A stretch of 45,492 bases of DNA, taken from positions 1 through 45,492 of the forward strand of contig JAJZCD010000006.1 of assembly GCA_021851735.1 (NCBI GenBank), read 5' to 3'. The stretch comes from a bacterium (GTDB lineage Bacteria > Patescibacteriota > Saccharimonadia > Saccharimonadales > UBA4665). The position numbers and the translations under genes are program-made. This document shows, in pieces, positions 23,688 through 25,559 of this stretch. Within the stretch, counting starts at the first letter, position 1; each line of letters opens with the position of its first letter. The notes under the pieces were generated by a model. It did no database searches. It was not told the DNA's origin and saw nothing but the letters and a program-made list of their open reading frames with translations.

Positions 23688-23848
23688 CGTAGTGGCCATG
23701 CAGTGAAAATCAGTAAAAAGGGTGCACACGTCATTGGTCTTGTTGCAACATTTTGTATGCGGATAGAGTGATGCCCTCAAGAAGTTTTCCATTTTGTCGC
23801 TAACGCAGTTTTGTAGTGCTCTATATACAGGTGCGCTACAATATACAT

Positions 23849-24358
23849 ATGAACGAAAAACAAACAGCTAGTGCGATCGCGGCAACGCCAACCGTACGAC
23901 CAACTAAAAAACAGAAAGAATTACTAGCGTATATAGAAGCATTTATTGCTGAACATGGCTACAGTCCTAGTTACCGCGAAATTATGAACGGGCTGCAGTA
24001 TAGCTCAGTAGCAACTGTAGCGTTGCACGTTAATAGCCTGATAAAGCGCGGTCACCTTCGCAAGCGTGACCACAGCGCCCGTTCGCTCGAAGTCGTCACG
24101 CACGGTATATCTACAGACAAGCTGCTCAAAACTAATATTGTCAAAGCAGACGAAGAAAAGTGGTTCGTGCAGAAGGTTGAGGGATTCTTTGCAGAAGCAG
24201 AGGCGTCGCTACTGCCGACAGACGGGCAGCTTGAGCATATACGGGTGCTTCTTGAAGCATTGCGGGTGCTGGGTATGGACGGTGCTGCCCAAAGTTTTAT
24301 AGAACGTTTTGGCGCACTTAAAGCACGTCAAGCTCCAGCGCCTGCGGTAGACCAGTAA
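23849..24358 (+). CDS. LexA-type winged-helix DNA-binding protein lacking the S24 autoprotease domain
   Basis: TKKQKELLAYIEAFIAEHGYSPSYREIMNGLQYSSVATVALHVNSLIKRGHLRK; remainder shows no Ser/Lys peptidase motifs; TACAAT 6 nt before ATG. Confidence 0.8.
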   Translation: MNEKQTASAIAATPTVRPTKKQKELLAYIEAFIAEHGYSPSYREIMNGLQYSSVATVALHVNSLIKRGHLRKRDHSARSLEVVTHGISTDKLLKTNIVKADEEKWFVQKVEGFFAEAEASLLPTDGQLEHIRVLLEALRVLGMDGAAQSFIERFGALKARQAPAPAVDQ

Positions 24359-24434: not shown

Positions 24435-24650
24435 CAGTTGTATACAAAAATACTATATCTAGCGCTTCGTTTACTTGCTACACTACTATCACTATTAACA
24501 ATATGGGTTGGAAGCAAGTGAGAATCTTGCGCTGTGCCGCAACGGTGTATCCTCTAAGCGATTTGAGGGAAGTCCGATACAACTGTTTAAATCTTCCGAG
24601 CAGAAGTGTGCCAAAAACTGGTGACGATTGCTCGGGGACAAGGAGCTAAT
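24435..24650 (+). promoter_or_regulatory. Cobalamin (B12) riboswitch-like RNA with expression platform
   Basis: GGAAGCAAGTGAGAATCTTGCGCTGTGCCGCAAC core, AGTCCGATACAACTG B12-box-like 3' part; CAGTTGTAT (24435-24443) pairs perfectly with ATACAACTG (24577-24585); hairpin CCGAGCA/TGCTCGG follows; AGGAG then GTG start. Confidence 0.8.
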
Positions 24651-24651
24651 C

Positions 24652-25023
24652 GTGAGCCGAGCAGCCACAATAAAAATCAGTATAGTAAGCGCTATCGTCA
24701 TCGCTGCGCTTGGCTTTGGGAGTTGGGCATATGTTGCCAACCTACCAAGCCATAAAGTGTCTGTCGTAACGAATGCACAGCATCAGATCACACAACTGAG
24801 CTACCGTGGGCAAAACGGTCAAAACGCTTTGGCGCTGCTTAAAAAACACGCTACAGTCAAAACAAAACATTATTCATTTGGCGATATGGTCATGTCTATA
24901 GACGGCGTAACAGGTAATGGCCCAAAGTATTGGACATTTTATATTAACGGTAAAGAAGCAAAAGTGGGCGCAGGTGCGTATAGTACCAAAAGCACGGATA
25001 CGATAATGTGGAGGTTACAATAA
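24652..25023 (+). CDS. DUF4430 (transcobalamin-like) domain protein, membrane-anchored
   Basis: N-terminal TM, then GQNALALLKKHATVK...GPKYWTFYINGKEAKVGAGAYSTKSTDTIMWRL typical of DUF4430; AGGAG SD before GTG. Confidence 0.85.
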   Translation: MSRAATIKISIVSAIVIAALGFGSWAYVANLPSHKVSVVTNAQHQITQLSYRGQNGQNALALLKKHATVKTKHYSFGDMVMSIDGVTGNGPKYWTFYINGKEAKVGAGAYSTKSTDTIMWRLQ

Positions 25024-25559
25024 TGAATGAGAAACGATTTAGTATTGGGTTAGCCATACTACTGATAGCGCTTGGCGTTAGCTTACGTATTGTCCCGCAC
25101 CCGGCTAATTTTGCACCTGTAACCGCCATAGCAATATTTGGCGGAGCAGTACTACCACGTAAGCTTGCTATATGGGTACCTGTGGCTGCGATGATGGTAT
25201 CAGACGCAGTGATTGGGTTTTACAGCATGATGCCCGTTATCTGGGCCTGCTATGCGCTCATTGCATTGGCGAGCAGCTTGCTGCTCGGGAGGGGGCGTGG
25301 ACGTGTAGTACGGGGTAGCGCCCTGACACTTGGCTCATCCTTATTCTTTTTTATAGTGACAAACTTTGCAGTTTGGGTCATGAGCGGCATGTACAACCAT
25401 ACGTGGGCGGGATTAGTGCAGTGCTACACGTTGGCAATTCCATTCTTCCGGGGTACCGTAGCTAGTGATATCGTGTATACTGCTGCACTCTTCGGAGTCT
25501 TTGCTGTAGTCCGGTTCATGGCACGTGGCCACCTTAAGCCAGCGGCTCAGAACGTATAA
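25023..25559 (+). CDS. DUF6580/ECF-transporter S-component-like membrane protein
   Basis: HPANFAPVTAIAIFGGAVLPRK...WVPVAAMMVSDAVIGFY; start overlaps the previous stop (TAATG). Confidence 0.8.
   Translation: MNEKRFSIGLAILLIALGVSLRIVPHPANFAPVTAIAIFGGAVLPRKLAIWVPVAAMMVSDAVIGFYSMMPVIWACYALIALASSLLLGRGRGRVVRGSALTLGSSLFFFIVTNFAVWVMSGMYNHTWAGLVQCYTLAIPFFRGTVASDIVYTAALFGVFAVVRFMARGHLKPAAQNV

Follow-up and report, generated by a model that had tools for sequence, protein, structure and literature searches.

The host, a tiny, episymbiotic bacterium, has a genome of 1.13 Mb that is assembled in 53 contigs and is 97.7% complete; the window analyzed here, the whole 45,492-nucleotide stretch of DNA, is its contig C43. 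The closest named relatives of this genome are metagenome-assembled genomes of Candidatus Saccharibacteria. Two overlapping genes in the window are preceded by a putative regulatory RNA, with the following features:

24494..24607, plus strand: cobalamin-riboswitch-like leader, consisting of an aptamer core (24494-24590) and a conserved 3' hairpin
24593..24606, plus strand: hairpin CTTC-CGAGCA-GAAG, with the loop CGAGCA kept and the stem letters varying among orthologous leaders
24629..24635, plus strand: TGCTCGG, located shortly before the ribosome-binding site of DUF4430; its reverse complement, CCGAGCA, is found without mismatch at 24596-24602
24652..25023, plus strand: DUF4430 gene, GTG start at 24652, TAA stop at 25021-25023, 123 aa (PF14478, E=1.9e-14)
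25023..25559, plus strand: DUF6580 gene, ATG start at 25023, 178 aa (PF20221, E=2.8e-46)

Each gene has a good ribosome-binding site (AAGGAG at 24640-24645 for DUF4430 and GGAGG at 25010-25014 for DUF6580), and the TAATG overlap between them that was described in the initial annotation is real and correctly placed. Also in agreement with that annotation, no EcfA or EcfT gene adjoins the pair at this locus. A gene for a regulator with a LexA-like N-terminal domain (23816-24358) is located just upstream of the leader, and its orthologue is found upstream of the DUF4430-DUF6580 pair in L019 as well.

The riboswitch-like leader

At the Rfam gathering thresholds, no match was detected in the whole window. 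The AdoCbl-II model (RF01689) aligns with positions 24494-24590 at 25.9 bits (E=7.7e-4 in a 461-base search), short of its gathering score of 36.5, and judged by this score by itself the leader is marginal. Given the lack of a match at the gathering threshold, a leave-one-out covariance model, R1, was built from seven orthologous leaders, including those of L013, L019, L068 and L071 and excluding the window's own. R1 recognizes the window leader with 72.7 bits (E=6.5e-15) and has matches in 56 of the 59 genomes of the host's family, generally one in each. Several orthologous leaders exceed the Rfam thresholds: in the same position, the leader of L013 matches the AdoCbl model at 62.3 bits and that of L019 matches the Cobalamin model at 32.1 bits, and on other CPR contigs the leaders L068, L071 and L118 pass RF01689. 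The aptamer matches of L016, L010, L017 and L007 are better than that of the window copy but below the Rfam threshold. The orthologous leaders thus back the earlier claim that both genes lie downstream of a cobalamin-riboswitch-like element. The window leader resembles the riboswitches of RF00174, RF01482 and RF01689 in its aptamer core and in its site upstream of predicted uptake genes, but differs from them in that this copy stays under the gathering score and that different orthologues are best fit by three different Rfam models.

The 3' hairpin is likely to form the kissing-loop arm, and the TGCTCGG segment, together with its complement CCGAGCA, represents a possible expression platform. 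This pairing is present in the single-strand fold of the leader; TGCTCG also occurs in L017 but is absent from some orthologues. Promoter and terminator scans gave results at about chance level, and the total folding energy of the leader is not unusual (z -0.24), so no structural claim made here relies on these scans or on the energy. In the genome G304, an R1-type element is located directly upstream of class I nrdA-nrdB genes (L172, G304:C37:132-3999). Repression by B12 classically acts on these genes, whose enzyme does not depend on B12, and this location supports the identification of the leader as a real B12 sensor.

Relationships of the two proteins

The S-component-like nature of the DUF6580 protein that had been noticed in the initial annotation is supported by two lines of comparison. 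A DUF6580 profile of 25 sequences has a sole sequence match in the PDB, 6FNP chain A (E=2.7e-5, residues 4-162 of 182), which is the ECF-CbrT B12 transporter (PMC5997447); with a wider DUF6580 profile, the match to the same structure has an E-value of 4e-4. The AF2 model of the protein (pLDDT 94.3) is helical throughout, and its best Foldseek match is BtuM with bound cyanocobalamin (8C7P; probability 1.00, TM 0.66, E 0.08), the other confident matches being S-components of ECF transporters (RibU, FolT, ThiT). DUF6580 thus combines sequence homology to the CbrT family with the S-component fold, so that the sequence and the predicted structure independently point to two experimentally characterized B12 S-components. 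No paper mentioning DUF6580 was found in our literature searches.

At its N-terminus, the DUF4430 protein has a hydrophobic helix, modeled at residues 3-29, and it contains no lipobox cysteine. The top PDB match of a DUF4430 profile of 21 sequences is transcobalamin-1 (4KKI, E=4.1e-6), and the AF2 model (pLDDT 82) matches transcobalamins, intrinsic factor, haptocorrin and the R. gnavus protein 3U7Z in Foldseek with probabilities of at least 0.96, transcobalamins being the best of these. Because the Foldseek E-values are modest (0.004-0.08, with 0.004 for the best match to transcobalamin), the weight is carried by the sequence matches and the gene context; the relation to transcobalamin suggested earlier holds for both sequence and fold. 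In common with transcobalamin, haptocorrin and intrinsic factor, the protein has the DUF4430 beta-domain with the YW...GAGxY...W motif; unlike the members of that family, it is bacterial, membrane-anchored and only 123 aa long. We propose that it is a corrinoid binder, with a predicted membrane anchor and an extracytoplasmic fold similar to the transcobalamin beta-domain. A bacterial B12 operon thus includes a protein related, through the beta-domain, to the carriers of B12 in vertebrates.

Transcobalamin itself uses both an alpha-barrel and the beta-domain. The N-terminal alpha6/alpha6 barrel is absent from the window protein, in which only the membrane helix and the beta-domain are present, and this favors a rival scheme in which DUF6580 alone imports the corrinoid and the DUF4430 protein stabilizes the transporter or binds something else. 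The fold match of DUF4430 to cobalamin carriers is specific, which argues in the opposite direction, and on the whole evidence, including the genomic contexts described below, we regard import by DUF6580 alone as unlikely. In four loci (L022, L023, L025 and L026), the DUF4430 gene is located just before, or overlaps, a gene for a protein resembling alpha/alpha-barrel repeats, as if transcobalamin had its two domains split between neighboring genes; the genomes G003, G005 and G019 have DUF4430 together with such a barrel-like gene, and DUF6580 elsewhere in the genome.

Genomic context of the pair and of DUF6580 in other lineages

Among 296 Saccharimonadia genomes, DUF6580 scores over the cut-off in 25 and DUF4430 in 23, and the two genes form an adjacent pair in 21. 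All 21 pair loci bear a mark of B12 metabolism, namely a riboswitch, an adjacent class II ribonucleotide reductase (RNR) and/or the corrinoid adenosyltransferase CobA. The pair is not always linked to a riboswitch, a point that the initial annotation had singled out for checking: the riboswitch is present at eight of the 21 loci (L001, L007, L008/L169, L010, L013, L016, L017 and L019), and the remaining 13 adjoin class II RNR and/or CobA. Class II RNRs of three B12-dependent kinds (PRK08665-type NrdJ, PRK06556-type NrdJ and RTPR) adjoin 12 of the pair loci, and CobA is encoded within two genes of the pair at 10; by chance, about 0.1 loci would be expected for each, under the assumption of about 1000 genes and of independent loci, which related genomes do not provide. 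Literature searches for cobalamin riboswitches or class II RNR in Patescibacteria or CPR found no papers. In three genomes, G051, G076 and G252 (L014, L018 and L020), the pair is located beside an RTPR-type class II RNR, and neither CobA nor PduO is detected above the cut-off, so that these organisms may import AdoCbl directly or adenosylate the corrinoid in another way; the adenosyltransferase PduO, considered as a substitute where CobA is missing, was found only in G003.

The association between the two families is also reflected in their divergence, which is correlated (r=0.73, Mantel p=1e-4), in part owing to shared species history. Both this correlation and the adjacency at the 21 loci argue against the scheme with DUF6580 as the only importer. 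The exceptions to the association bear on the same question from the other side. DUF4430 is not located beside DUF6580 in G005, G019 and G003, and in G005, DUF6580 is found next to CobA and NrdJ without DUF4430, which identifies DUF6580 as the constant part of the system.

We further examined 80 DUF6580 loci from many phyla, 26 from CPR and 54 from other bacteria; these loci were gathered by searching for a conserved-motif pattern and were ordered by their resemblance to the protein in the window, which means that the proportions given here are no census. The neighbors of DUF6580 at these loci include TonB receptors, PduO, CobA, class II RNR, MetH, MTHFR, B12-binding domains and periplasmic binding proteins, and RF00174 was detected at 10 of the 14 non-CPR loci tested. 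DUF4430 is encoded within the examined neighborhood at 22 of the 26 CPR loci (mostly adjacent, in some cases a few kb away) versus none of the 54 others, and TonB receptors are encoded at none of the 26 CPR loci versus 27 of the 54 others. This distribution fits a division in which bacteria with an outer membrane feed DUF6580 through a TonB receptor and CPR cells feed it through a tethered binder. Given its absence from beside DUF6580 at the sampled non-CPR loci, as in the three Saccharimonadia genomes, DUF4430 is not essential for DUF6580 in general, an observation consistent with import by DUF6580 alone; its presence near DUF6580 at most of the CPR loci speaks against that scheme. Among the neighbors at the 80 loci, the Diphthami_syn_2 family (PF01902) is found eight times.

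The identity of the neighbors also bears on the nature of the cargo. B12 riboswitches are known to control genes for the uptake of precursors as well, and the transported compound could in principle be a corrinoid precursor or fragment instead of a complete corrinoid, for example dimethylbenzimidazole, the cargo of CblT. We consider this very improbable: the relatives that were identified, CbrT, BtuM and transcobalamin, bind whole corrinoids, and the adenosyltransferases and AdoCbl-dependent enzymes encoded nearby point to a finished corrinoid.

Energy coupling, host use of B12 and other entry routes

The initial annotation had raised the possibility of a shared ECF module encoded elsewhere in the genome, but none was found. 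EcfT (PF02361) scores over the cut-off in none of the 296 Saccharimonadia genomes, the host included, compared with 9 of 14 control genomes; among 48 other genomes with DUF6580, five are positive, none of them CPR, and no EcfT was detected in the 21 CPR carriers searched. It follows that in CPR DUF6580 must work without a recognizable ECF module. A true ECF transporter, with a T-component and ATPases too diverged for PF02361, or energization of DUF6580 by an unrelated ABC ATPase, nevertheless has to be considered, given that weak sub-threshold PF02361 matches occur in three f2 genomes and that CbrT, the closest relative by sequence, depends on EcfA/A'/T and did not support growth as a solitary protein without this module (PMC5997447). 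Against the detection of EcfT in most control genomes, the lack of matches above the cut-off in the 296 Saccharimonadia genomes and in the other CPR carriers searched, and the lack of any EcfT family in the tallies of DUF6580 neighbors, make such a hidden module quite unlikely.

The lack of an ECF module does not refute uptake since solitary B12 S-components are known: BtuM of Thiobacillus denitrificans functions without an ECF module in E. coli and is active in organisms that lack such a module (PMC6072759). DUF6580 shares with BtuM the S-component fold, the B12 context and a host without detected EcfT, but shows no detectable sequence match to it and, in CPR, is paired with DUF4430. Furthermore, Cys80 of BtuM from T. 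denitrificans is an invariant cysteine that serves as a cobalt ligand, whereas none of the cysteines is invariant among 74 DUF6580 sequences, the best candidate being C134 (Cys in 63 of 74, Ser in 10 of 74). DUF6580 is therefore not classified as BtuM but is expected to work like one, and it looks like a solitary, BtuM-like S-component. With CbrT of Lactobacillus delbrueckii (6FNP), the profile similarity of DUF6580 is nearly full-length, and a corrinoid substrate is accordingly expected; the available portion of the CbrT report describes no DUF4430 partner (PMC5997447), unlike the situation in the window.

The host has a use for B12. It encodes CobA and, as the only RNR detected in the genome, NrdJ, which scores 1373.6 bits (cut-off 859); no NrdB was detected. 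Thus, of the two circumstances that the initial annotation had jointly held against its proposal, the first partly holds, in that no ECF energizing module was found, but the lack of any use of B12 does not.

Taken together, the relationships to CbrT, BtuM and transcobalamin, the B12 marks at all pair loci and the presence of NrdJ and CobA in the host support the earlier suggestion of a corrinoid uptake module: the pair is likely to be a two-gene system for the salvage of corrinoids (vitamin B12) under the control of a B12-sensing RNA. In the proposed pathway, the membrane-anchored DUF4430 protein would capture the corrinoid outside the cell's only membrane and hand it over to DUF6580. The latter, an S-component-like carrier, would bring it into the cell independently of an ECF module, in the manner of BtuM. 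Adenosylation by CobA would then convert the corrinoid to AdoCbl and so trap it inside the cell, and AdoCbl would be used by NrdJ and would close the riboswitch, the direction of control that we infer for the leader.

A more specific version of this pathway is an ECF-free importer that combines an anchored transcobalamin-like receptor with the solitary S-component DUF6580 and is driven by intracellular adenosylation and trapping rather than by ATP; it would correspond, in CPR, to the combination of a TonB receptor with the same inner-membrane carrier in bacteria that have an outer membrane. We put this forward tentatively, at somewhat short of even chances. If it is correct, DUF6580 is a widespread, previously unassigned family of B12 transporters; if an ATPase proves dispensable for a solitary S-component that has a tethered binder, this also bears on how other solitary S-components such as BtuM are energized. 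The analysis offers a testable function for DUF6580 across many phyla and a proposal for cofactor acquisition by CPR bacteria that depend on a B12-dependent RNR.

The pair is one of at least two B12 routes in the host's family. Most genomes of this family encode NrdJ and CobA and have the riboswitch but lack the DUF4430-DUF6580 pair, so another entry route for B12 must exist. A FecCD match in the host (28 bits, G000:C16) was considered as a potential BtuC and rejected, given that the contig also encodes an ATPase, a substrate-binding protein and a Fur-like regulator, which makes a metal ABC importer likelier. The BacA/SbmA-like ABC family (PF06472), another alternative B12 importer, was found in none of the 59 genomes. 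We inspected 17 riboswitch loci that lack the pair (L149-L163, L167 and L168). Their first substantial downstream gene encodes an unrelated, hypervariable soluble protein, approximately 380-550 aa in length (truncated at a contig end in one case), with cysteine-rich C-terminal motifs that contain pairs of cysteines; none of the nine such proteins examined matches a Pfam family. The pair-less riboswitch is often found at the same genomic site, before genes for nadD-like, DsbA and CBS-domain proteins. In G193, the pair and a hypervariable protein (one of the 17 loci) are encoded at separate loci, each with its own riboswitch, and in G211 (L169, G211:C1), a 633-aa open reading frame of the hypervariable kind shares one riboswitch operon with DUF4430 and DUF6580.
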